From Streptomyces sp. NBC_01445 (GTDB taxonomy: Bacteria; Actinomycetota; Actinomycetes; Streptomycetales; Streptomycetaceae), in the NCBI RefSeq assembly GCF_035918235.1, contig NZ_CP109485.1, forward strand, positions 2,976,001-3,040,000: a stretch of DNA of 64,000 nucleotides, given 5' to 3'. Within the stretch, counting starts at the first letter, position 1; every line of letters begins with the position of its first letter. Shown here in pieces: positions 3,347-53,766 of this stretch. The notes beneath the pieces were generated by a model that was not told the origin of the DNA, searched no databases, and worked only from the letters and a program-made list of their open reading frames with translations. The translations under genes were made by a program, and so were the position numbers.

Positions 3347-4594
3347 CTAACTCGCGCCACTGACAATCGGTTCCCGTGACGTGATCGACGCGCCGCCCTC
3401 GGCCAGGAAACGCGCGAGCGGCAGGGTCGCCGCGCCGACTGTGACCGCGTCGGGTCCGAGGCGCCCGAGTTCGATGGTGGTCTGCGCGTACGGGTGGCGC
3501 AGGGCGTACGCGGCGGCCGCCCGCCGGACCGGTTCGAGGAGGCGGGGGCCCAGGAGCAGCCCGGCCCAGCCGCCGACGACGATGCGCTCGGGGTTGAAGA
3601 GATTGACGAGGTCGGCGATGCCCGCGCCGAGGAACTCGGCCGTCTCGTCGAGGAGTTCACCGGCTTCGGGGTCGGCGAGGAGCTCGGCGAGCGCCCCCTC
3701 CTCGTCGGCCGAGGTCGGGTGGCCGCCGCTCTCCCGCCACCGTTCGAGCAGCGCCTCGGCGCCCACGTACGCCTCCAGGCAGCCGCGCGCCCCGCACCGG
3801 CAACGGCGCCCGCCGACCTGGAGCGTGGTGTGGCCCCACTCCCCCGCACTGCCGGACGAGCCCTGGTAGGGGACGCCGTCGGCGATGACGCAGGCGCCGA
3901 CGCCGGAGCCGATGAGGGTGACGACGGCGTTGCGGGCTCCACGGCCCGCGCCGAACCACATCTCGGCGAGGCCGAGCGTCTTGGCGCCGTTGTCGACGAA
4001 CAGGGGCAGTTCGGGCGGGAGTTCACCGCAGTCGCGGAGCATCGCCTCGAGGGGGACGGCGTCCCAGCCGATGGCCTGGCCGTGCACGACGGCTCCGACG
4101 GCGCCGCCCGCACCGGAGGCGTCGACGATGCCGGGCACGCCGATGCCGACGCCGATGAGGGCGTCCGGCGCGACCTTCGCCTCGGCGAGCACCTGCGCGA
4201 GGCCGGCCGCGACGATCCGTACGACGTCCCGCGCGTCATGGTGTCCGTCGGGCAACGGGGCGTCCACGCGCGCGAGTTCGTTCAGGGTGAAGTCGAAGAG
4301 CTCCACGCGTACGCGTGTCTCGCCGATGTCGACGCCGGCGAGGTGGCCGCAGTGCGGGGCGACGCGCAGGAGCGTGCGCGGCCTGCCGCCGTCGGAGTCG
4401 ACCGATCCTGCTTCCTCCAGGAGGCCGTCGGCGACGAGCTCGGAGACGACATTGCTGATCGACCCCGAGCTGAGTGCGGTGAGCGGGCCCAACTCCTGCC
4501 GGCTGAGCGGCCCGTCGAAGTAGAGCTTGCGCAGCACCGTGGCGCGGTTGTTGCGTCTGAGGTCACGCACCGTGCGCCGGCGTGGTCCGGCCAT
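3347..4594 (-). CDS. ROK-family transcriptional regulator
   Basis: A 415-aa protein with an N-terminal winged helix (RRNNRATVLRKLYFDGPLSR, then GSISNVVSELVADGLL) fused to a ROK sugar-kinase fold. The ATPase-type DIGETRVRVELFD strand, the IGVGIGVPG loop and the zinc site GHTTL...CRCGARGCLEAYVG are all present, which is the XylR/NagC-like repressor layout. Two ATG codons compete. The one at 4600 directly abuts GGGGGAGG, whereas the one at 4594 has it at a proper six-base spacing, so 4594 is used. It is the first gene of the run ROK-P450-thioesterase. Such regulators usually respond to sugars or sugar phosphates, and which one applies here is unknown. Unlike true ROK kinases, it is likely to act only as a DNA-binding sensor. 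Confidence 0.9.
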   Translation of the reverse strand: MAGPRRRTVRDLRRNNRATVLRKLYFDGPLSRQELGPLTALSSGSISNVVSELVADGLLEEAGSVDSDGGRPRTLLRVAPHCGHLAGVDIGETRVRVELFDFTLNELARVDAPLPDGHHDARDVVRIVAAGLAQVLAEAKVAPDALIGVGIGVPGIVDASGAGGAVGAVVHGQAIGWDAVPLEAMLRDCGELPPELPLFVDNGAKTLGLAEMWFGAGRGARNAVVTLIGSGVGACVIADGVPYQGSSGSAGEWGHTTLQVGGRRCRCGARGCLEAYVGAEALLERWRESGGHPTSADEEGALAELLADPEAGELLDETAEFLGAGIADLVNLFNPERIVVGGWAGLLLGPRLLEPVRRAAAAYALRHPYAQTTIELGRLGPDAVTVGAATLPLARFLAEGGASITSREPIVSGAS

Positions 4595-6724: not shown

Positions 6725-6904
6725 GGTCGACAAATCTACGCACCCGTGGCACCCGGGACCGCCTCGTGGAGCGGACCGTGGACGAAAGTCGCGGCGGCCG
6801 GTACTTCGGTACGCGCGTCCCGCCGTAAGTCGCGTCTTGTGGCGGGACGCGCCTCGCCCCGCGGCCGATGTGCGTGGGAGGTCCGCGGGGCGAGGTTGTC
6901 ACCT

Positions 6905-7127: not shown

Positions 7128-7535
7128 TCAGCAGCTGTGGTCGACGAGGTCGAACGTCGCGTAGTGGTCGCCGGTGTAGTAGTCCTCCTGGGACTGCTCA
7201 CCGGTGACGATGCGGCGGGCGCCGCGGGTCGGGGAGCCGGGGGTGATGACCGTGTACTCGTGGTAGTAGCCGGTGGACTGCGAGGGCAGGACGCCCTCCC
7301 GGTTCTGGAAGACGGTGCCGTCCTGGTCGTACGGGTAGGGGCCGCCCTGCTCGATGAGGTCGAGCGTGTCGTGGGCCTGGGAGGGCAGCGCCGAGTAGCA
7401 GATGTCGCCGACGGCTGTCACGGAGTACGTGACGGGGGCCGGGGCCGCGGTGGCCGAGCCGGCGAGGACGGGGCCGCCGATGAGCAGGGCGGCGGCGAGG
7501 GCAGTGACGCTGGCGATTCGTGGGGGGATTCGCAT
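7128..7535 (-). CDS. secreted guanyl-specific ribonuclease, RNase Sa type
   Basis: A 135-aa preprotein. A Sec signal peptide (MRIPPRIASVTALAAALLIG, cleavage near ATA-AP) precedes a mature domain that closely resembles RNase Sa: SALPSQAHDTLDLI, GPYPYDQDGTVFQNREGVLP, STGYYHEYTVITPG and TGDHYATFDLVDHSC. The catalytic Glu lies in YYHEYTV, an Arg in TRGARRI and the catalytic His in GDHYATF. The Cys near the mature N-terminus and the terminal Cys match the single disulfide of the family. It cleaves RNA 3' of guanosine outside the cell. It is a lone gene convergent with the small membrane protein. I see no barstar-like inhibitor beside it. Confidence 0.95.
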   Translation of the reverse strand: MRIPPRIASVTALAAALLIGGPVLAGSATAAPAPVTYSVTAVGDICYSALPSQAHDTLDLIEQGGPYPYDQDGTVFQNREGVLPSQSTGYYHEYTVITPGSPTRGARRIVTGEQSQEDYYTGDHYATFDLVDHSC

Positions 7536-44581: not shown

Positions 44582-45970
44582 TCAGGACTCGGCGGTGATC
44601 CGCGCGAGACGCTGGGCCTCCTGACGCGCATCGCGGGCGATGGCGTCCTCGTCGGCGTGCAGCAGGCGTCCGTCCTCGACGACCGGCTTTCCGTTGACGA
44701 GGGAGAGGGTGACCGGGGCCGCCGCGCCGAAGACGATGGCGGTGACCGGGTCGGCGATCGAGGAGTGCCCGATGCCGTCGATCTTCCACAGGACCAGGTC
44801 GGCGAGCTTGCCCGCCTCCAGGGAGCCGATCTCGGCGGCGCGGCCCAGGACCCGGGCACCGCCGGCGGTGCCCAGCCTGAGCGCCTGACGGGCGTTCAGG
44901 GCGGCCTCGCGGTGGGCGCCGAGACGGTTGATGAGGAGGGCGTTGCGCAGCTCGGTGTGCAGCTCGCCGGACTCGTTGGACGCCGTGCCGTCGACGCCGA
45001 GGCCGACCGGGACGCCGGCCTTGAGCATGTCAGGGACGCGGGCGATGCCGGCCGCCAGACGGGCGTTGGACGACGGGCAGTGCGCGACACCCGTGCCCGT
45101 ACGGGCGAAGGCGGCGATGTCCGAGTCGTTCATGTGGACGCAGTGCGCCATCCACACGTCCTCACCGAGCCAGCCCGTCGACTCGAAGTAGTCGGTCGGG
45201 CCCATGCCGAAGAGCTCGTGGCAGAACTTCTCCTCCTCGACCGTCTCGCTGCCGTGAGTGTGCAGCCTCACCCCGAGCCGGCGCGCCAGCTCGGCGCCCT
45301 GCTTCATGAGTTCGGTGGACACGGAGAACGGCGAGCAGGGGGCGACGGCCACCTGGGTCATGGCGCCGAAGGAGGCGTCGTGGTGCTTCCTGACGGTCTC
45401 CTCGGTGGCCGCGAGCGCGCCCTCGAGGGTCTCGACCGCGAAGTCCGGCGGCAGGCCGCCGTCCTTCTCGCTGCGGTCCATGGAGCCGCGGGCGAGCGTG
45501 AAGCGGACACCCATGTCGGAGGCGGCGCCGATGATGGCGCCGGACAGGTCGCCGGAGCCCTGCGGGTACACGTAGTGGTGGTCCATCGCGGTGGTGACAC
45601 CGCCGCGGGCCATCATCGCGAGGGAGCCCTGCGCGGCGACGCGGGCCATCTGCTCGTCGATGCGCGCCCACGTCGGGTACAGCGCGACCAGCCAGTTGAA
45701 CAGGTTGTGGTCCGTGGCGAGGCCCCGGGTGATCCACTGGTAGAAGTGGTGGTGGGTGTTGATCAGGCCGGGCGTGACGAGGTGACCGGTGCCGTCGACC
45801 CGGCGTACGACGTTCTCCAGGCCCGCGGGGGCCTGGCCTGCGCCGATGGACTCGATCTTGTTGTCGGCGACGACCACGTACCCCGAGGCGTACTCGGTGT
45901 CGTTGGCGTCGACGGTCGCGATGGCCGCGTTCTCGATGACGATGCGGGAAGGGGCTGCCGAAGGTGCCAT
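44582..45970 (-). CDS. 8-oxoguanine deaminase-like amidohydrolase
   Basis: A 462-aa amidohydrolase-superfamily deaminase. Metal ligands are PGLINTHHHFYQWITRGLA (HxH), His in GVRLHTHGSETVEEE, His in VWMAHCVHMNDSD and Asp in GLGVDGTASNESGEL. This set, with the long YPTWARIDEQMARVAAQGSL segment, matches proteins annotated as 8-oxoguanine deaminase, which yield urate from 8-oxoguanine. Guanine deaminase or another aminopurine hydrolase is possible. The ATG at 45970 has AAGGAAG upstream. It follows a permease by 48 bp in the same operon, consistent with purine salvage into urate. Confidence 0.88.
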   Translation of the reverse strand: MAPSAAPSRIVIENAAIATVDANDTEYASGYVVVADNKIESIGAGQAPAGLENVVRRVDGTGHLVTPGLINTHHHFYQWITRGLATDHNLFNWLVALYPTWARIDEQMARVAAQGSLAMMARGGVTTAMDHHYVYPQGSGDLSGAIIGAASDMGVRFTLARGSMDRSEKDGGLPPDFAVETLEGALAATEETVRKHHDASFGAMTQVAVAPCSPFSVSTELMKQGAELARRLGVRLHTHGSETVEEEKFCHELFGMGPTDYFESTGWLGEDVWMAHCVHMNDSDIAAFARTGTGVAHCPSSNARLAAGIARVPDMLKAGVPVGLGVDGTASNESGELHTELRNALLINRLGAHREAALNARQALRLGTAGGARVLGRAAEIGSLEAGKLADLVLWKIDGIGHSSIADPVTAIVFGAAAPVTLSLVNGKPVVEDGRLLHADEDAIARDARQEAQRLARITAES

Positions 45971-46018
45971 GGTGCTTCCTTCATGATGAGTGGCGAGGCG
46001 TGTGGGCACGGCAGGACC

Positions 46019-47431
46019 CTAGGAGGATTTGAGTGCCGCGGCGGCGGTGGCGCGGCCGCGGGTGCCGAGATGGTGAAAGAACAGGTTCAGCGATACGGCC
46101 ACCAGGGCGCCCGCGCTGATGCCGGAGCCGAGCACGGTCTGCGCCCAGGCCGGGAATTCGGCGTAGAAGGTGGGCGCGGCGAGCGGGACGATCCCCGCGC
46201 CGAGCGAGACGGCGACCAGGATGATGTTCGAGCTGTCGTCGAGGCCGGCCTCCGACAGCGTACGGATGCCGCTGACGGCGATGGAACCGAAGAGGACGAT
46301 GCCCGCGCCGCCGAGGACCGGCATCGGCACCGTGGAGACCACCGCGCCGAGCACCGGGAAGGCGCCGAGGACCAGGAGCGCGCCTCCCGCGGCGGCGACG
46401 ACGTAGCGGCTGCGCACCTTGGTCAGCGACACGACGCCGACGTTCTGGGCGAAGGCCGAGGTGGGGAAGCCGCCGAAGACGGGGCCGAGAAGGGTGGCGA
46501 GGCCGTCGGTGCGCAGGCCGCGGGTGATGGTCCTGCCGCTGGTCTCGCGGTCGCAGATCTCGCCGATGGCGAGCATTCCGGCGCTGGACTCCGTCATCAG
46601 GACGAGCATCACCAGGCAGAGCGAGAGGATCGCGGCGGGCTGGAACTCGGGCGTGCCGAACGCGAAGGGCGTGGGCAGCGCGGCGACCGGGGCCGACCTG
46701 AGGGCGCCGAAGTCGGCCATGCCGAACGGGATCGCGGCCAGCGTGCCGATCAACAGGCCCAGAAGCAGGGCGACTTGCTTGACGAAGCCGCGGCCGAAGC
46801 GCTGGATCACCAGGATGACGACGAGCGTGAACGCGGCGAGTCCCAGGTACTTCATGTCGCCGAAGTCGGCGGCGGTCTTGTCACCGCCCTGCGCCCAGGC
46901 GACCGGGACGGGCATCAGGGTCACCCCGATGAGGGTGATGACGACGCCCGTGACGAGCGGTGGGAAGAAGCGCAGGAGCCTGCCGAAGAACGGGCCGATC
47001 GCGAGACAGAAGACGCCGGCGACCATCACCGCACCGTAGATGGCGGGGAGTTGGTCGCCCCGGGCGTTGGTCTCGGCGATGGCGAGCATCGGCGCGATGC
47101 CGGCCGAGGAGGCGGCGTTGACGAAGGGCAGCCGGTTGCCGACGAGTCCCTTGACGCCGAGGGTCTGCAGGAGGGTGGCCACGCCCGCGATGAGCAGGCT
47201 GGCGGCGATGAGCCGGGTCTGGCCCGCCGTGTCGAGACGGACGGCCTGGCCGATGATGAGCGGGGGCGTGACCACGCCCGCGTACATCGCGGCGATGTGC
47301 TGGAGTGCCGCGGGGACGAGCCGCGAGGGGTGGAGCTTTTCGTCCACCGGGTGCACCACGTTATGGCTTGTGGTGTTCTCCGATGGGGTGGAACACGGGC
47401 CTTCTGCCGGCCCTTTTGCAGGCGTTGCCAT
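46019..47431 (-). CDS. NCS2 uracil/xanthine-type permease
   Basis: A 470-aa paralog of the permease at 42860, with the same motifs: LQHIAAMYAGVVTPPLIIGQ, LMTESSAGMLAIGEI, FGGFPTSAFAQNVGVVSLTK and VRSRYVVAAAGGALLVLG. About 14 membrane helices; a proton-coupled purine (xanthine or urate) importer is likely. The ATG at 47431 has GGAGGG at good spacing. It lies only 70 bp after the uricase stop, with a strong hairpin between them, so its expression probably depends on partial read-through or a promoter inside that gap. It leads into the deaminase gene. Confidence 0.93.
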   Translation of the reverse strand: MATPAKGPAEGPCSTPSENTTSHNVVHPVDEKLHPSRLVPAALQHIAAMYAGVVTPPLIIGQAVRLDTAGQTRLIAASLLIAGVATLLQTLGVKGLVGNRLPFVNAASSAGIAPMLAIAETNARGDQLPAIYGAVMVAGVFCLAIGPFFGRLLRFFPPLVTGVVITLIGVTLMPVPVAWAQGGDKTAADFGDMKYLGLAAFTLVVILVIQRFGRGFVKQVALLLGLLIGTLAAIPFGMADFGALRSAPVAALPTPFAFGTPEFQPAAILSLCLVMLVLMTESSAGMLAIGEICDRETSGRTITRGLRTDGLATLLGPVFGGFPTSAFAQNVGVVSLTKVRSRYVVAAAGGALLVLGAFPVLGAVVSTVPMPVLGGAGIVLFGSIAVSGIRTLSEAGLDDSSNIILVAVSLGAGIVPLAAPTFYAEFPAWAQTVLGSGISAGALVAVSLNLFFHHLGTRGRATAAAALKSS

Positions 47432-47449
47432 TGCTGTCCCTCCGGTGTG

Positions 47450-47493
47450 GCGCACCCCCCGCCCGGCTACGGGCGGGCGGGCGGGGGGTGCGC
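47450..47493 (-). terminator. terminator after uricase
   Basis: GCGCACCCCCCGCCCG pairs with CGGGCGGGGGGTGCGC in an almost perfect ~15-bp GC stem beginning nine bases after the uricase stop and ending 18 bases before the permease ATG. Confidence 0.75.
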
Positions 47494-47501
47494 GCCCCGC
47501 G

Positions 47502-48434
47502 TCAGAGGTTGGTCATGTCGACCGGGATGTGCGGCTCGCAGCCGTCGCGCAGGATGGTGGCCTCGATCAGGCCGTAGGGGCGGTCGGCCGCGTAGTACAC
47601 GGCGCCGTCCTTGGCTTCGTTCTCCAGACCGAAGGCGGAGAGGTCCTGCCGGAAGTGGTGCTTGTTGGGCGCGGAGAAGCGGATCTCGTCGATCTCGCTG
47701 CGGTTGTTGATGACCCGCGAACCCATTTGGTACAGCGTCTGCTGGAGCGAGAGCGAGTACGTCTCCACGAACGCCTGGAGGATGTGCTTCTTGGACTGCT
47801 CGTAGGACTTCTCCCACTGCGGCATGCGCTGGTCGTCGGAGGTCCAGTTGTGCCGCCACCACGTCGACAGGGACGTGGCGAGGATGCGGTCGTAGTCCTC
47901 CTGGAGCGTCGTGTACTTGTCCTTGATGTAGCCCCAGAACTCGGAGTTCGTGGAGTTCATCACGGTCAGGTCCTTGAGCCCGGACAGGACTTCGAACTTC
48001 TCGCCGTCGTACGTGATCTGCGCGAGGCGGGTCTCCTGGCCCTTGCGGACGAAGGAGTGCTTGACCTCGTCGGCGCCGATGAACTTGGAGTTGCCGTCGG
48101 AGCCGGCGATGCGCTCCCAGGAGTACTCCTCGATGCGGATGCGCGCGCGGTGGATGGACGGCTGGCTGTCCACGAAGTGCCGGGCGAGGTGGATGCCGTA
48201 CTGCTCGGCCGACTCGATGCCGTATTCCTTGGCGAACGCGAAGCAGGTGTTCTTCGTCGTGTCCGTCGGAAGGCAGTTGGCGTTCGAGCCGTTGTAGTGG
48301 ACGTCGTCGAGGTCGCCGGAGAGGGCGACGGAGACGTTCAGGTCCTTGATGTGGTGGGTGTCGCCGTCCCGCGTGATCTTGACGACGCGGTTCTCTGCTT
48401 TGCCGTACTGGTTCTGGCCGAGAATCGTGGGCAT
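47502..48434 (-). CDS. uaZ: urate oxidase (uricase)
   Basis: A 310-aa cofactor-free uricase, which oxidises urate to 5-hydroxyisourate and makes hydrogen peroxide. The LPTDTTKNTCFAFAKEYGIE motif holds the catalytic Thr, NQYGKAENRVVKI the catalytic Lys region, and APNKHHFRQDLSAFG the His. Two tunnel-fold repeats are present, and the C-terminus is complete. The ATG at 48434 follows GAGGGAG and lies five bases after the HIU hydrolase stop. It is the third gene of the operon uraD-uraH-uricase behind the class II operator at 49439-49453. Confidence 0.97.
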   Translation of the reverse strand: MPTILGQNQYGKAENRVVKITRDGDTHHIKDLNVSVALSGDLDDVHYNGSNANCLPTDTTKNTCFAFAKEYGIESAEQYGIHLARHFVDSQPSIHRARIRIEEYSWERIAGSDGNSKFIGADEVKHSFVRKGQETRLAQITYDGEKFEVLSGLKDLTVMNSTNSEFWGYIKDKYTTLQEDYDRILATSLSTWWRHNWTSDDQRMPQWEKSYEQSKKHILQAFVETYSLSLQQTLYQMGSRVINNRSEIDEIRFSAPNKHHFRQDLSAFGLENEAKDGAVYYAADRPYGLIEATILRDGCEPHIPVDMTNL

Positions 48435-48439
48435 GTCTG

Positions 48440-48844
48440 CTAGCTCCCTCGGTAAACGGAGTAGCCGAACGGGTTGAGCAGCAGCGGTACGTGATAGTGC
48501 TCGCCCGGCTTGACGGCGAACGTGATCGCCACCTCCGGGAAGAACGCACCGCTGTCCCTTACGCGGGGGGCGTCCTGCTGCGCCTCGGCTTGCTTCACTG
48601 TCTTGATAGAACGCGTGAAGTACGTCTCGACGGCGAAGTCGAGCCGTACGTGGGTGGTGCCCTCCGGCAGCGCCGGCAGGTCCTTGCAGCGCCCGTCCGC
48701 GTCGGTCGCGGAGCCGCCGAGCGCCACCCACTCGGCGTCGCTGCCCTGACGGGCGGCGAGCGAGATGGCGACGCCCTCGGCGGGGCGTCCGATGCTGGTG
48801 TCGAGAATGTGCGTCGACACCGACGCGGTGGTCGCGGTGCTCAT
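48440..48844 (-). CDS. uraH: 5-hydroxyisourate hydrolase
   Basis: A 134-aa transthyretin-like hydrolase that opens 5-hydroxyisourate to OHCU. VSTHILDTSIGRPAEGVAIS holds the active-site His and the N-terminal signature, and the C-terminus ends in the diagnostic YRGS. The family acts as a tetramer. Its ATG overlaps the last base of the uraD stop (TGATGA), and the uricase gene follows after five bases, so the three steps are made together. This order lets the unstable urate products be processed enzymatically. Confidence 0.97.
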   Translation of the reverse strand: MSTATTASVSTHILDTSIGRPAEGVAISLAARQGSDAEWVALGGSATDADGRCKDLPALPEGTTHVRLDFAVETYFTRSIKTVKQAEAQQDAPRVRDSGAFFPEVAITFAVKPGEHYHVPLLLNPFGYSVYRGS

Positions 48845-49374
48845 CAGTCCTTGTCCTCTTCCACTTCTACGTCTTCTTCGGCGAGGCGGGTCAGGCGGAT
48901 ACGGTTGATCTTCCCCAGTTCGGTGCGCACGATCTCGCGCTCCGTGCGGGTGTCGTTACCGATCCTGGCCTTCATCGCGTCGCGCATCTGCTCGCCGGTC
49001 GCCCCGGTGGCGCAGATCAGGAAGACATGACCGAACCGGTCCTGGTACGCCAGGTTCAGTTCGAGCATCTCGGCCTTGAGCTCCTCGGAGGCGCCGGCCA
49101 TGCCCCGCTGCTCGCGGGACGAGGTCGGGTCGCCCGGCTTCGGGCGGCCGATCGGGGGGTGCCCCGCCATCGCCTCGGCGAGATCCTCGGCGCTGAGCTC
49201 GGCCATGGCGGCGTCGCTCGCGGCGAAGAGTTCCTCCGCGGTTTTGAAGGGGCGCTGGGCGAGGAGCTTGCTCCCCCACGCCGAGCTTGCACACACCTCG
49301 TGGAGCGCGGCACCGGCCGCGTTCTCCTGAAGGGTGTTGAACCGGGAAAGCCCCGGCATCGGACGTGAAGTCAC
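48844..49374 (-). CDS. uraD: OHCU decarboxylase
   Basis: A 176-aa enzyme that decarboxylates OHCU to S-allantoin. The catalytic His is in MAGHPPIGRPKPG, and the conserved TSSREQRGMAGA and FGHVFLICATGATGEQM segments are present. The GTG at 49374 has GGAGG seven bases upstream; an ATG at 49359 has no such site. It is the first gene of the operon with uraH and uricase. The promoter at 49414-49442 and a class II operator lie just upstream. The C-terminus is acidic (EEDVEVEEDKD). Confidence 0.96.
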   Translation of the reverse strand: MTSRPMPGLSRFNTLQENAAGAALHEVCASSAWGSKLLAQRPFKTAEELFAASDAAMAELSAEDLAEAMAGHPPIGRPKPGDPTSSREQRGMAGASEELKAEMLELNLAYQDRFGHVFLICATGATGEQMRDAMKARIGNDTRTEREIVRTELGKINRIRLTRLAEEDVEVEEDKD

Positions 49375-49413
49375 GGGAAGCCTCCGTGGCCTTGAGCTGG
49401 ACGGGCTGCGGAT

Positions 49414-49453
49414 AGCTAACGCCCTCCGAAACACCACGTCAACACTTTGTTGA
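49414..49453 (-). promoter_or_regulatory. uricase-operon promoter with class II operator
   Basis: On the minus strand TTGACG (49442-49437) and TTAGCT (49419-49414) are 17 bases apart. The palindrome TCAACA-CTT-TGTTGA (49439-49453) overlaps the -35 hexamer, exactly as at katA. Confidence 0.7.
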
Positions 49454-49472
49454 AAACTCGGAGTTACAAAAA

Positions 49473-49497
49473 CCGCCGCCCGGTATCCGGACGGCGG
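49473..49497 (-). terminator. terminator after the YheO-type HTH gene
   Basis: CCGCCG-C-CCGG-TAT-CCGG-A-CGGCGG forms a stem that on the minus strand is followed by five T. It lies 33 bases beyond the HTH stop and insulates the uraD promoter. Confidence 0.85.
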
Positions 49498-49530
49498 CTG
49501 GTTCGACACCTTGGCGTGATACTGGGGAGG

Positions 49531-49908
49531 CTACTCCCCCTTGGCCGCGTTTTCCCTGTTCAGGTAGTTGTAGACGGTAAAACGACTCACCCCGAGCGCA
49601 CCGGCCACGGTCTCCACTCCGTGCCGCACGGAGAAGGCACCGCGTGCCTCCAGTATCCGTACGACCTCCTGCTTGGCCTTGCGGTCGAGGGCCGACAGGG
49701 GCATGCCCCGCCCGCGCTCCATGGCCACCAGGATGTGATCCAGGGAGTCGGCCAGCTGGGGCAGCCGTACCGCGATGACCTCGCGACCCTCCCAGTGCAG
49801 GACGACATCGTCCTTGCCCGCCTCCTGCGGCGGCAGCATCTCGCCCCCCATGGCGTCCACCAGCGGCTTCACCGCGCTGACGAAGGGGACGTCTCCTGTA
49901 GCGCTCAC
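49531..49908 (-). CDS. stand-alone YheO/DauR-type HTH regulator
   Basis: A 125-aa protein. The C-terminal half (KQEVVRILEARGAFSVRHGV, then ETVAGALGVSRFTVYNYLNR) matches the HTH that ends YheO/DauR regulators. The usual ~100-residue PAS-like YheO sensor is missing and is replaced by a short N-terminal region (VVLHWEGREVIAVRLPQLAD, then SLDHILVAMERGRGMPLS). The ATG overlaps the stop of the small upstream gene by four bases, so the two are made together. Its place between the uricase operon and hyi suggests control of purine genes; the class II palindrome is a candidate site (inference). Confidence 0.78.
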   Translation of the reverse strand: MSATGDVPFVSAVKPLVDAMGGEMLPPQEAGKDDVVLHWEGREVIAVRLPQLADSLDHILVAMERGRGMPLSALDRKAKQEVVRILEARGAFSVRHGVETVAGALGVSRFTVYNYLNRENAAKGE

Positions 49909-50156
49909 TTATCGCCCTCCCCCATCACATTGACCTGGAGCGAGACGCGGGTGGCGCCGGCCGCCAGGGCCTGGCGCAGCAGCGCGTCCACCGCACCGAG
50001 CACGGCGTCCGCCTCCCCTTCGGCGGTGTTGCCGAAGGGTCCGACATCCACCGCGTCCAGTTCGGCCTTCTGGATGACGTCGCGGGCGACGACCGCATGG
50101 GGCGGCGCCTCGTCCAGGTCGAAGGGCTCGGTCGTGAACTCCACTCTCAATCGCAC
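49905..50156 (-). CDS. MTH1187/YkoF-like (thiamine-binding-like) small protein
   Basis: An 83-aa single-domain protein. RLRVEFTTEPFDLDEAPP forms the first strand. VDVGPFGNTAEGEADAVLGA and the end GATRVSLQVNVMGEGDK match the ferredoxin-like MTH1187 family (DUF77), some of which bind thiamine or its pyrimidine. The GTG at 50156 lacks a ribosome site, but TAGGTT lies six bases before it, a good leaderless promoter. It overlaps the HTH gene downstream. It could supply the missing sensor domain for that protein. The divergent hyi-glxR operon begins at 50317. Confidence 0.7.
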   Translation of the reverse strand: MRLRVEFTTEPFDLDEAPPHAVVARDVIQKAELDAVDVGPFGNTAEGEADAVLGAVDALLRQALAAGATRVSLQVNVMGEGDK

Positions 50157-50199
50157 GGGGTCAACCTACTGCCGCGACCGGTTTTTCCGGCAGCCCCTC

Positions 50200-50264
50200 T
50201 TGACAAGAGCGAAGCATCCCCGGCAGTCTTCCATCAAGCAGAAACGAACTTCCGCTATACGGAA
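50200..50264 (+). promoter_or_regulatory. hyi-glxR promoter with class I operator
   Basis: TTGACA (50200-50205) and CAGTCT (50224-50229) are 18 bases apart, with a predicted start near 50236. TTCCGC-TAT-ACGGAA (50250-50264) lies just downstream of that start, where a bound repressor would block elongation. Confidence 0.65.
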
Positions 50265-50316
50265 CTCGACACCGAGTGCCGTACGGATCTCGATACGGAA
50301 GGGAGCGCCGACCCCG

Positions 50317-51156
50317 ATGGGATTCGCAGACCAGCGCTTCAACGTCAACCTGTCGATCCTCTTCACGGAACTCCCGCTCCTGGAGCGCCCCGCGGCCGCC
50401 GCCGCGGCGGGCTTCACCGCGGTCGAGCTGTGGTGGCCCTGGGTCGACGCCCCCACCCCCGAGCAGTCCGAGCTCGACGCCCTCAAGAAGGCGATCGAGG
50501 ACGCGGGCGTACAGCTCACCGGACTCAACTTCTACGCCGGACAGCTGCCGGGCCCCGACCGCGGCGCCCTGTCCATCCCCGGCGAGGAGAGCGACAGGTT
50601 CCGCGCGAACATCGACATCGCGGCGGACTTCGCCCTCTCCCTCGGCTGCAAGGCGCTCAACGCGCTGTACGGCAACCGCGTCGACGGCGTGGACCCGGCG
50701 GTCCAGGACGAGCTCGCCCTGGAGAACCTGGTGCTCGCGGCCCGCGCCGCCGACCGCGTCGGCGCGATCCTCCTGATCGAGGCGCTGAACAAGCCCGAGT
50801 CGCCGCTGTGCCCGATCGTGAGCGCCCCCAAGGCGATCGAGATCGTGGACAAGGTGAACGCGGCCACGGGCCTCGGCAACGCCAAGTTCCTGATGGACCT
50901 GTACCACCTGTCCATGAACGGCGAGGACCTGCCCGCGGTGATCGAGCAGTACGCCGCGAAGACCGGCCACGTGCAGATCGCCGACAACCCGGGCCGCGGC
51001 GCCCCCGGCACCGGTTCGCTGCCGCTCGAGGAGCTGCTCGACCAGCTGGCGAAGACGGGCTACGAGGGCTATGTCGGCCTGGAGTACAAGCCCGGCGACA
51101 AGCCGAGCGCCGAGGCCTTCGACTGGCTGCCCGCCGGGGCCCGCGCCACGCGCTGA
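50317..51156 (+). CDS. hyi: hydroxypyruvate isomerase
   Basis: A 279-aa TIM-barrel isomerase that interconverts hydroxypyruvate and tartronate semialdehyde. It begins RFNVNLSILFTELPLLERPA. Active-site Glu residues are in LLIEALNKPESP and GYVGLEYKP, and metal ligands in KFLMDLYHLSMNGED and GHVQIADNPGRGAPGTGSL. The length and motifs fit the family. The ATG at 50317 has AAGGGAG somewhat far upstream. It heads a two-gene operon with glxR and carries a class I operator in its leader, so it belongs to the allantoin/glyoxylate regulon. Confidence 0.95.
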   Translation: MGFADQRFNVNLSILFTELPLLERPAAAAAAGFTAVELWWPWVDAPTPEQSELDALKKAIEDAGVQLTGLNFYAGQLPGPDRGALSIPGEESDRFRANIDIAADFALSLGCKALNALYGNRVDGVDPAVQDELALENLVLAARAADRVGAILLIEALNKPESPLCPIVSAPKAIEIVDKVNAATGLGNAKFLMDLYHLSMNGEDLPAVIEQYAAKTGHVQIADNPGRGAPGTGSLPLEELLDQLAKTGYEGYVGLEYKPGDKPSAEAFDWLPAGARATR

Positions 51157-51212: not shown

Positions 51213-52103
51213 ATGAGCAACCTCCCCAAGATCGCGTGGATCGGACTCGGCATCATGGGCTCCCCCATGTCCGAGAACCTGATCAAGGCTGGTTACTCGG
51301 TGACCGGCTTCACCCTCGAGCAGGACAAGCTGGAGCGGCTCGCGGCCGCCGGCGGCACCGCGGCCGGCTCGATCGCCGAGGCCGTCAAGGACGCCGACGT
51401 CATCGTCACGATGGTGCCCGCCTCTCCGCAGGTCGAGGCCATCGCCTACGGCGAGAACGGCATCCTCGAGAACGCGAAGTCCGGCGCCCTGATCGTCGAC
51501 ATGTCGTCGATCACCCCGCAGACCTCCGTGGACCTCGCGAAGGCCGCCAAGGACAAGGGCATCCGCGTCATCGACGCCCCCGTCTCCGGTGGCGAGGCCG
51601 GCGCGATCGAGGCCGTTCTGTCGATCATGGTCGGCGGTGAGCAGGCCGACTTCGACGAGGCCAAGCCGCTCCTCGACGCCCTCGGCAAGACCATCGTGCT
51701 GTGCGGTCCGCACGGCTCGGGCCAGACCGTGAAGGCCGCCAACCAGCTGATCGTCGCCGTGAACATCCAGGCGTGCGCCGAGGCCGTGGTCTTCCTGGAG
51801 AAGTCCGGCGTGGACCTGACGGCCGCGCTCGACGTCCTCAACGGCGGCCTGGCCGGCTCGACCGTCCTGACCCGCAAGAAGGACAACTTCCTGAACCGGG
51901 ACTTCAAGCCCGGCTTCCGGATCGACCTGCACCACAAGGACATGGGCATCGTCACCGACGCCGCCCGCAACGTGGGCGCCGCCCTGCCCGTCGGCGGTGT
52001 GGTCGCCCAGCTCGTCGCCTCCCTGCGCGCCCAGGGCGACGGCGGCCTCGACCACTCCGCGCTGCTGCGCGGCGTCGAGCGCCTCTCCGGTCAGCAGGTC
52101 TGA
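51213..52103 (+). CDS. glxR: tartronate semialdehyde reductase
   Basis: A 296-aa beta-hydroxyacid dehydrogenase that reduces tartronate semialdehyde to glycerate. The NAD loop IAWIGLGIMGSPMSENLIKAG is near the N-terminus. The substrate motif DAPVSGGEAGA is around residue 120, the catalytic Lys is in SGQTVKAANQLIV, and the C-terminal KDMGIVTDAARN is conserved. GAGAGG precedes the ATG. It follows hyi by 56 bp and ends before a large hairpin. With Gcl it closes the glycerate branch of glyoxylate use. Confidence 0.95.
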   Translation: MSNLPKIAWIGLGIMGSPMSENLIKAGYSVTGFTLEQDKLERLAAAGGTAAGSIAEAVKDADVIVTMVPASPQVEAIAYGENGILENAKSGALIVDMSSITPQTSVDLAKAAKDKGIRVIDAPVSGGEAGAIEAVLSIMVGGEQADFDEAKPLLDALGKTIVLCGPHGSGQTVKAANQLIVAVNIQACAEAVVFLEKSGVDLTAALDVLNGGLAGSTVLTRKKDNFLNRDFKPGFRIDLHHKDMGIVTDAARNVGAALPVGGVVAQLVASLRAQGDGGLDHSALLRGVERLSGQQV

Positions 52104-52189: not shown

Positions 52190-52253
52190 TCAACAAACTG
52201 TTGACCATGACTTCAACAAACTGTTGACGTAGCTGTTCAGAGCCTCTTACGCT
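52190..52253 (+). promoter_or_regulatory. katA promoter with duplicated class II operator
   Basis: TTCAACAAACTGTTGAC occurs twice (cores 52190-52204 and 52213-52227), 23 bp apart. The second overlaps the -35 TTGACG (52224-52229), followed after 18 bp by the -10 TACGCT (52248-52253). Confidence 0.75.
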
Positions 52254-52308: not shown

Positions 52309-53766
52309 ATGTCGAAGCGTGTGCTCACGACCGAGTCCGGCGCTCCTGTCGCCGACAACCAGAATTCCGCCACCGCCGGCGTCGGTGGCCCGCTTCTCCT
52401 CCAGGACCAGCACCTCCTCGAGAAGCTCGCTCGCTTCAACCGCGAGCGCATCCCGGAGCGTGTCGTCCACGCGCGCGGTTCCGGCGCGTACGGCTACTTC
52501 GAGGTGACGGACGACGTCACCGGCTTCACCCACGCCGACTTCCTCAGCACGGTCGGCAAGCGCACCGAGACGTTCATCCGCTTCTCCACCGTCGCGGACA
52601 ACCTCGGCGGCGCGGACGCGGTCCGCGACCCGCGCGGCTTCGCGCTGAAGTTCTACACCGAAGAGGGCAACTACGACCTCGTCGGCAACAACACCCCGGT
52701 GTTCTTCATCAAGGACCCGATCAAGTTCCCCGACTTCATCCACTCCCAGAAGCGCGACCCCTTCACGGGCAAGCAGGAGGCGGACAACGTCTGGGACTTC
52801 TGGGCGCACGCCCCCGAGGCGACGCACCAGATCACCTGGCTGATGGGCGACCGCGGCATCCCTGCCTCGTACCGCCACATGAACGGCTACGGCTCGCACA
52901 CCTACCAGTGGACGAACGCCGAGGGCGAGGCCTTCTTCGTCAAGTACCACTTCAAGACGAACCAGGGCATCCGCTGCCTCTCCTCCGAGCAGGGCGCCGA
53001 GATCGCGGGCAAGGACGCCAACTCGCACCAGACGGACCTGCTCCAGGCCATCGAGCGCGGCGTCAACCCGTCCTGGACCCTGTACGTGCAGCTCATGCCC
53101 GTCGCCGAGGCGGACGACTACCGCTTCAACCCGTTCGACCTCACCAAGGTGTGGCCGCACAAGGACTATCCGCTGCAGCGCGTGGGCCGCCTGGTCCTCG
53201 ACCGCAACCCGGACAACGTCTTCGCCGAGGTCGAGCAGGCCGCGTTCTCCCCGAACAACTTCGTGCCCGGCATCGGCCCCTCCCCGGACAAGATGCTCCA
53301 GGGCCGCCTGTTCGCCTACGCGGACGCGCACCGCTACCGCCTGGGCGTCAACCACACCCAGCTCGCGGTGAACGCGCCCAAGGCGACCGACGCCGACAAC
53401 TACGGCCGCGACGGCCTGATGGCGTCCAACGCCTACGGCCGCGACCGCAAGAACTACGAGCCCAACTCGTACGACGGGCCCGCCGAGACCGGCCGCCCGC
53501 TGTCGGCCCCGCTCGCCGTCGCCGGCTACACCGGCACGCACGAGGCGCCCGCCCACACCAAGGACGACGACTTCTTCCAGGCGGGCGAGCTGTTCCGCCT
53601 GATGTCGGACGACGAGAAGTCCCGTCTGATCGCCAACATCGCCGGCGGCCTCTCGCAGGTTTCCCGCGACGACGTGATCGAGAAGAACCTGGCTCACTTC
53701 CACGCCGCCGACGCCGAGTACGGCAAGCGCGTGGAGGAAGCGGTCCGCGCCCTGCGCGAGGACTGA
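52309..53766 (+). CDS. katA: monofunctional heme catalase (clade 3, small subunit)
   Basis: A 485-aa catalase. The distal His is in [15 protein letters not shown], the distal Asn in [16 protein letters not shown], and the proximal heme Tyr in [19 protein letters not shown]. There is no C-terminal flavodoxin-like domain, so it is the small-subunit type. It removes hydrogen peroxide in the cytoplasm. Its position beside uricase-pathway genes and its class II operators, shared with the uricase operon, indicate that it disposes of the peroxide made by uricase. A catalase terminator follows at 53776. Confidence 0.96.

Follow-up and report, generated by a model that had tools for sequence, protein, structure and literature searches.

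The window analyzed here, a stretch of 64,000 nucleotides from Streptomyces sp. NBC_01445, contains on its minus strand two small genes that share 4 bases at their junction, located between the genes of urate degradation on one side and a divergent group ending in a catalase gene on the other. The features concerned are as follows.

49905-50156, minus strand: small DUF77/MTH1187-like (PF01910-type) protein of 83 aa, upstream gene of the pair and proposed sensor subunit
49531-49908, minus strand: HTH_22 (YheO-type; PF13309) protein of 125 aa, downstream gene of the pair and proposed DNA-binding subunit
48844-49359, minus strand: OHCU decarboxylase, putative target gene (PF09349, 143 bits for 48847-49371)
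48440-48844, minus strand: 5-hydroxyisourate hydrolase (HIUase), putative target gene (PF00576, 109.7 bits)
47505-48437, minus strand: urate oxidase (uricase), putative target gene (PF01014, 200.7 bits; TIGR03383, 341.4 bits)
46019-47455, minus strand: xanthine/uracil-type permease, possibly in the same operon (PF00860, 313.7 bits)
44582-46009, minus strand: 8-oxoguanine deaminase-type amidohydrolase (NF006055, 641.6 bits, above the cut-off of 532)
50317-51156, plus strand: hydroxypyruvate isomerase-like protein, divergent from the pair (TIGR03234, 315.1 bits, below the cut-off of 353.45)
51213-52103, plus strand: tartronate semialdehyde (2-hydroxy-3-oxopropionate) reductase (TIGR01505, 494.8 bits, above the cut-off of 340.75)
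52309-53766, plus strand: catalase, putative target gene (PF00199, 621.8 bits)
49439-49453: putative operator 1, TCAACACTTTGTTGA, a perfect site before the OHCU decarboxylase gene
52190-52204: putative operator 2, the upstream one of two copies before the catalase gene, a perfect site
52213-52227: putative operator 3, a perfect site before the catalase gene

The start of the OHCU decarboxylase gene at 49359 was chosen by us; the longest open reading frame, 48844-49509, would cross operator 1.

An earlier note on this DNA had described an overlapping gene pair, and both open reading frames are indeed present on the minus strand with the 4-base overlap, the gene of the 83-aa protein being the upstream one. 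The note had also regarded the downstream product as a YheO-type HTH without its sensor. The 125-aa protein matches PF13309 (HTH_22) with 70.8 bits, against a curated cut-off of 29.6, over residues 56-117, the match being preceded by only 55 residues, and no match to PAS_6 was found in this protein at E ≤ 1. The family and the missing PAS_6 domain therefore stand, but the protein is not a bare HTH, as about 50 N-terminal residues form a conserved α-β-β module. For the 83-aa protein, the sole profile near its cut-off is PF01910 (Thiamine_BP), with 24.7 bits just below the curated 24.9, whereas TIGR00106 is matched at 17.5 bits, far below its cut-off of 54.7. The PF01910 cut-off is passed by six of eight homologues (L072 with 24.1 and L064 with 19.8 bits fall below), the PF01910 flag in the protein database is present on some close homologues and absent from others, and the family profile of the small protein matches 1YQH, MTH1187, TM0486, and MJ1052 in the PDB, in agreement with the family assignments made earlier for both proteins. 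In the window, the putative sensor and the HTH are encoded by two genes, differing from the one-component layout with both in a single polypeptide.

In a sample of 61 genomes, the 83-aa protein was found in 37 of 37 same-genus genomes, the window's own included, and a single query gave no match in the remaining 24. Adjacency of the two genes, a point raised in the earlier note, was seen from either query: among the matches listed, the window's own locus included, the HTH gene lies directly downstream of the small gene in 30 of 30 cases, and a query with the HTH gene likewise found the small gene adjoining in 30 of 30, again with the window's own locus among them. A clear ortholog of the HTH gene is present in 42 of 394 genomes of the class, that is, in 37 of 40 same-genus genomes at E ≤ 1e-48 and in G098, G363, G364, G407, and G418 at E ≤ 1.1e-14, with seven genomes matching only at E 3e-11 to 9e-7 counted as lacking it; a single open reading frame with both domains occurs in G098, G363, G407, and G418. 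A scan of species genomes with a profile of the fused form gave at least 593 stretches with 551 confirmed relatives, and the best 80 of the 551 were combined with five earlier loci into a set of 85. The genes stand in tandem in 83 of these; in the other two, the HTH gene comes first (L111) or the genes are convergent (L143). These latter two loci come from MAGs labelled Actinomycetota and Microthrixaceae, and a match to the uricase set is absent from either. Genes for uricase, HIUase, or OHCU decarboxylase are present in all 83 tandem loci; in L117 and L132, the best urate-gene hits are 5-7 kb off, with second copies directly downstream of the pair. Five Nocardia loci (L112, L117, L120, L127, and L132) have two urate-gene sets, the first lying 5-7 kb upstream of the pair and the second immediately downstream of it.

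The palindromic sites that the earlier note had named at 49439-49453 and within 52190-52227 proved to be perfect copies of TCAACANNNTGTTGA, and the 11.47-Mb genome contains exactly three such copies, all in the window, whereas a reversed control pattern has zero copies in the same 11.47 Mb. The right half of operator 1 runs, on the minus strand, into TTGACG, 18 bases, and TAGCTA (an imperfect −10 box) before the OHCU decarboxylase gene, and the right half of operator 3 runs into TTGACG-N18-TACGCT before the catalase gene, where the two operators are arranged in tandem, 23 bp apart. No perfect operator was found in the gap upstream of the pair (50157-50316), and autoregulation through this gap was not seen. 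Uricase produces H2O2, so that induction of a catalase alongside uricase makes sense, and, judging from these sites, uricase and the H2O2-removing catalase appear to be co-regulated.

Among the 85 loci, a perfect TCAACANNNTGTTGA lies within −50 to 600 bases of the stop codon of the HTH gene in 78, and the palindrome is present at the target operon in 82 of the 83 tandem loci; the single exception, L117, lacks a perfect site even though the pair is present and is followed by an OHCU-HIUase-uricase set. Of 89 perfect copies in the 1.33 Mb of these loci, 11 are outside the usual position. Four of the 11 accompany an OHCU gene that lies apart from the pair (L126, L130, L133, and L141; the OHCU match in L126 and L130 starts about 14-21 bases before the site, the query carrying non-coding residues at its start), and the remaining seven are far sites in Saccharopolyspora/Actinopolyspora. 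Such a far site lies at the start of an allantoinase-like open reading frame in five loci (L107, L114, L121, L136, and L139), confirmed as allantoinase by TIGR03178 for three of the five, with L122, which is cut off at the end of its locus, and L134 left out; the regulon may thereby extend one step further in these two genera. The consensus of the 82 sites is TTCAACAAAnTGTTGACG, with TTGAC at 78 of them. A TAnnnT box follows the TTGAC hexamer at a spacer of 17-19 at 49 of the 82 sites, compared with 0-4 in the other seventeen 3-base windows, and is absent at the expected spacing at 33. As the site extends into TTGAC and a −10-like box often stands at the distance expected of a promoter, its right half looks like a −35 box, which is the geometry of a repressor, and repression rather than activation is the likely mode of action on these grounds. 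The pair might instead act as an activator or a dual regulator, since the tandem sites before the catalase gene could permit activation from the upstream one; this promoter geometry makes it unlikely, as does the description of the YheO-like Cj1387c of Campylobacter jejuni as a repressor of its adjacent gene (PMC4519771).

The two proteins also occur naturally as fusions. Of the 83 tandem loci (drawn from the best 80 of 551 plus the five), 44 have the two domains fused and 39 have them split, the junctions of the split pairs showing an 8-base overlap in 25, a 4-base overlap in 4, an 11-base overlap in 1, and gaps of 3-58 in 9, with some bias in these figures because start codons were picked for lying close to the stop codon before them. 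On a two-domain tree (a quick tree, built without bootstrap), parsimony requires six changes between the fused and the split state, and branches with SH-aLRT ≥ 95 force at least four switches. The fused groups are L064, Amycolatopsis/Prauserella/Kutzneria (33), Phycicoccus/Pedococcus and kin (4), Nocardioides (4), one Kribbella, and one Actinopolyspora. In L106, a fused regulator of Amycolatopsis, sensor and HTH are joined by a long repetitive linker with repeats of about EPGHVAAA. Repeated fusion is a classical sign of two proteins acting as one; as the same halves have been fused repeatedly beside the same genes and the same site, the two genes appear to act as one regulator, and it is quite likely that their products form a physical complex where they are split.

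How the split proteins might be held together is suggested by the N-terminal part of the HTH protein. In the AlphaFold2 model of the 125-aa protein (pLDDT 84.8), a module of about 45 residues before the HTH (residues ~8-50; pLDDT 86-91 in the block 11-50) is predicted as helix-strand-strand (H8-19, E23-25, E35-39, and E42-48), and its residues D34, W39, and R48 are invariant in 49 of 49 aligned rows, comprising the window, nine database homologues, and the 39 split loci. By a motif check, the module is present in all 39 split HTH proteins, and it is found also in L111 and L143. Conversely, the module tryptophan was detected in the middle segment of only one of the 44 fused proteins (L107), the other 43 being without the module, which is missing from five of the six fused groups. 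The exceptional L107 shows almost no difference from the split pair of its sister L134, which makes it look like a recent fusion. The simplest account of the shedding of the module in fusions is that it holds the small protein and is dispensable once the two are linked covalently; on this basis we are inclined to regard the module as the docking site. The model of the window HTH protein gave no PDB hit at E ≤ 1e-3, and a looser comparison gave generic HTH/homeodomain matches, mostly to residues 73-125; no relative of the α-β-β module was identified in the PDB comparison, which falls short of proving a new fold. The fused form modeled as a single chain has a pTM of 0.50 with a low-confidence linker, so that the placement of the domains is not fixed by the model.

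These observations also bear on the possibility that the HTH protein regulates alone, sensing through its own module, while the DUF77 protein is a separate binder or carrier of an intermediate that merely shares the operon. The high conservation of the module would fit such a scheme, as would the existence of partnerless members of the small-protein family: of the 394 genomes sampled from the class, 224 contain PF01910 matches and only 42 the HTH ortholog. However, it is exactly these two domains that fuse repeatedly, with the module gone in most of the fused groups, and the genes remain neighbors even when reversed (L111) or convergent (L143). Furthermore, the same-genus genome G203 has kept OHCU-HIUase-uricase, but its genome gave no HTH match, the operator is missing at these genes, and the small gene is a remnant beside them (L260, minus strand, around 3397-3495); the HTH gene, the small gene, and the operator seem to have gone together. 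We thus regard independent action of the HTH protein as quite unlikely, and a regulator made of both proteins remains the preferred reading.

The fold of the putative sensor was assessed on the fused homologue L072 as a stand-in for the window protein. Its model (mean pLDDT 88.6) has a ferredoxin-like fold in the DUF77-type domain, and 14 of 14 Foldseek hits in the PDB at E ≤ 1e-3 are DUF77/MJ1052/MTH1187/TM0486/SP2199/YBL001c chains. In a looser search, microcompartment shell proteins rank level with the DUF77 chains, a likeness at the level of the fold, and PII chains are among the fold-level neighbors of the small domain. The predicted fold is therefore that of the DUF77/MTH1187/YqgV family (PF01910; MTH1187, TM0486, and MJ1052), with weak but significant sequence similarity, whereas the small protein differs from that family in being the proposed subunit or domain of a DNA-binding regulator and in having an invariant residue set of its own. 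When 15 purine-type domains chosen from the loci were aligned with nine ordinary PF01910 paralogs, E6, E10, F12, P18, H20, P40, and G42 were present in all of the former and in none of the latter, and G39 in all 15 and in one of the nine; the MFT...W.E and KADIR stretches of the ordinary paralogs are absent from the purine-type domains. In the predicted fold, the invariant residues lie where strand 1 ends, where helix 1 begins, and in the hairpin of strands 2-3, and the sheet edge that carries them is, from the secondary structure, a plausible ligand pocket. A cysteine is absent from the small protein of the window and present at least once in 31 of 83 homologues, and these cysteine-bearing homologues may have a redox role.

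As to the effector, the sites are read at genes of urate oxidation, allantoinase, and catalase, and a purine catabolite is for this reason our best guess; the chance that the ligand is urate or another compound of this kind is not far short of even, and a purine catabolite is likelier than thiamine. The earlier note had pointed to thiamine-binding members of the small-protein family and to a carboligase in the purine/glyoxylate regulon that uses thiamine diphosphate; read in this way, the small protein would sense thiamine and so tie the carboligase step to the purine regulon. This version derives its appeal from TM0486, a PF01910 member that is a thiamin-binding protein by a title cited in PMC6393860. 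It was not supported here: the operators that were read stand at OHCU decarboxylase-HIUase-uricase, at catalase, and in some genera at allantoinase, and the stretches conserved in the ordinary paralogs are lost from the purine-type domains and replaced by the residue set described above. Sensing of thiamine or a thiamine precursor is accordingly a distinctly improbable function of this protein, and the carboligase link was set aside.

The assignment of the palindrome to the pair was examined in genomes with and without it. Of 394 genomes, 40 contain the extended site TTCAACAAANTGTTGAM: 38 belong to the 42 that have the HTH ortholog, and the other 2 to the 352 that do not (G055 and G082, both sites being inside coding open reading frames). 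The four remaining ortholog genomes (G173, G284, G363, and G407) have the 12-base core. In the extended-site loci that were read (30 of 64 sites listed), 24 sites are at OHCU/uricase and 6 at catalase; in L224, the regulator is 13 kb off and the site remains with OHCU. As a control, a uricase search of 35 chosen genomes gave 29 matches in 26 of them. Two of these are accompanied by the pair and served as positive controls, with perfect sites in both, whereas none of the 27 matches without the pair (in 24 genomes, with the two in G373 being pieces of one gene) has the site, reaching only 8-9 of 12. Weaker HTH_22 relatives are present in three of the 24 pair-less uricase genomes (G105, G357, and G410), and G203 is another of the 24.

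Twenty-three HTH_22 relatives with other N-terminal parts were also scored against the 12-base palindrome. The recognition helix [ST]R[FY]T[VI]YNYL is found in three of them, two of which have sites scoring 11/12 and 12/12; the remaining 20 relatives reach 10/12 at most. The 12/12 site of L069 (helix TRYTVYNYL; 6770-6784) and the 11/12 site of L066 (helix SRYTIYNYL; 7269-7303) are both upstream of a PAS_6 domain and near the probable gene start, and the two relatives match PAS_6 at 82 and 97.5 bits and are thus PAS_6-HTH_22 proteins. Their loci are longer (12-13 kb) than most, but when each was shuffled 50 times, the observed score was never reached. The third relative with this kind of helix, L207, has only a 10/12 site, which is not upstream of the gene. 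L066 sits on a second contig of the window's own genome. As PAS_6-HTH_22 relatives with this kind of helix carry the same kind of palindrome, the comparison, on small numbers, points to the HTH domain itself as its reader, and the HTH subunit is very probably the protein that binds it; the helix [ST]RYT[VI]YNYL together with the palindrome is a possible recognition code for YheO-type regulators. In Streptomyces, allantoin genes have a regulator of the AllR type. That the palindrome is owned by such a regulator (AllR/IclR type) or by SenR, and merely travels with the operon, is very improbable, even though the operon is reported to be affected by HbpS-SenS-SenR in S. coelicolor (PMC4991794), because the site is absent from uricase loci lacking the pair, the extended form follows the HTH ortholog, two PAS_6-HTH_22 relatives have the same kind of palindrome, and both the E. 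coli AllR motif KTTGGAAWAWTWTTCCAAC (PMC8222616) and the predicted SenR sites (PMC4991794) differ from it by eye; AllR ownership was set aside.

We therefore favor the pair as a two-subunit repressor of urate degradation and catalase with the DUF77-type subunit as its sensor, a reading to which, from the sequence comparisons and models described, we would assign a probability of roughly 0.8. In the predicted mechanism, the HTH subunit would bind the palindrome TTCAACAAAnTGTTGAC over the −35 boxes that serve the OHCU decarboxylase-HIUase-uricase operon and the catalase gene, thereby blocking RNA polymerase; the DUF77/MTH1187-like subunit, carrying the ligand pocket, would dock on the HTH subunit via the α-β-β module, and effector binding would release or loosen the complex. 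The split sensor-regulator that the earlier note had suggested is in this respect strongly supported by the natural fusions, the kept adjacency, the joint loss in one genome, and the common operator. We further speculate, as a tentative scenario with somewhat less than even odds, that an ancestral two-protein repressor, composed of a DUF77 purine sensor and a YheO-type protein with the docking module, has undergone repeated independent fusions, the established ones shedding the module. On this scenario, a DUF77 protein of a vitamin-binding type would have been recruited as the sensor of a new family of regulators, and nature would have repeated several times the experiment of turning a complex into one chain.

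The proposed regulator is worth comparing with known systems, against which its novelty lies in how sensor and output are combined and not in the type of system. It has the HTH_22 DNA-binding domain in common with the YheO/DauR regulators (PAS_6-HTH_22, e.g., C. jejuni Cj1387c/CfiR); unlike these, it is without PAS_6 and has instead the α-β-β module and a separate or fused DUF77-type domain. HucR and PecS are urate-responsive repressors of the MarR family. They would share with the pair the job of holding uricase off until purine catabolites appear, but differ from it in both DNA-binding and sensor domains, the proposed sensor of the pair being a separate protein. In GlnK-AmtR and GlnK-TnrA, a PII-type small ligand binder with a ferredoxin fold controls a separate DNA-binding protein, as is proposed for the pair. 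In contrast to these PII-type systems, to which the likeness is at the level of the fold, the genes of the pair adjoin and overlap and have fused repeatedly.

In S. coelicolor, SCO6209-6211 are given as OHCU decarboxylase, HIU hydrolase, and urate oxidase in PMC4991794, which reports an effect of HbpS-SenS-SenR on them and a SenR site predicted ahead of SCO6209, so that this other system may act on the same operon too. From its number next to SCO6209, SCO6208 is likely to be the S. coelicolor ortholog of a gene of the pair; a table in PMC3897704 lists it as "Putative Transposase". In the open-licence papers searched, no description was found of the pair, of its operator, or of SCO6208 as a regulator. 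If the proposal is correct, many Actinomycetes including Streptomyces have a dedicated regulator of urate breakdown with its own operator and regulon, transcription factors have a new type of sensor, and a function is suggested for the gene whose likely S. coelicolor ortholog is SCO6208. The pair would also be a small two-part candidate for purine biosensing, and comparison of its split and fused versions could reveal how subunit interfaces vanish upon fusion.

A second recurrent palindrome, TCAACAGCCTGTTGA, considered as a further target, was rejected, as it is inside a coding frame (GC3 0.91-0.95) in the three of six loci that were read. It is found about 3 kb from an ordinary Thiamine_BP paralog in six Streptomyces-type genomes (G203, G241, G249, G351, G398, and G183), and its recurrence is most likely a coding coincidence.
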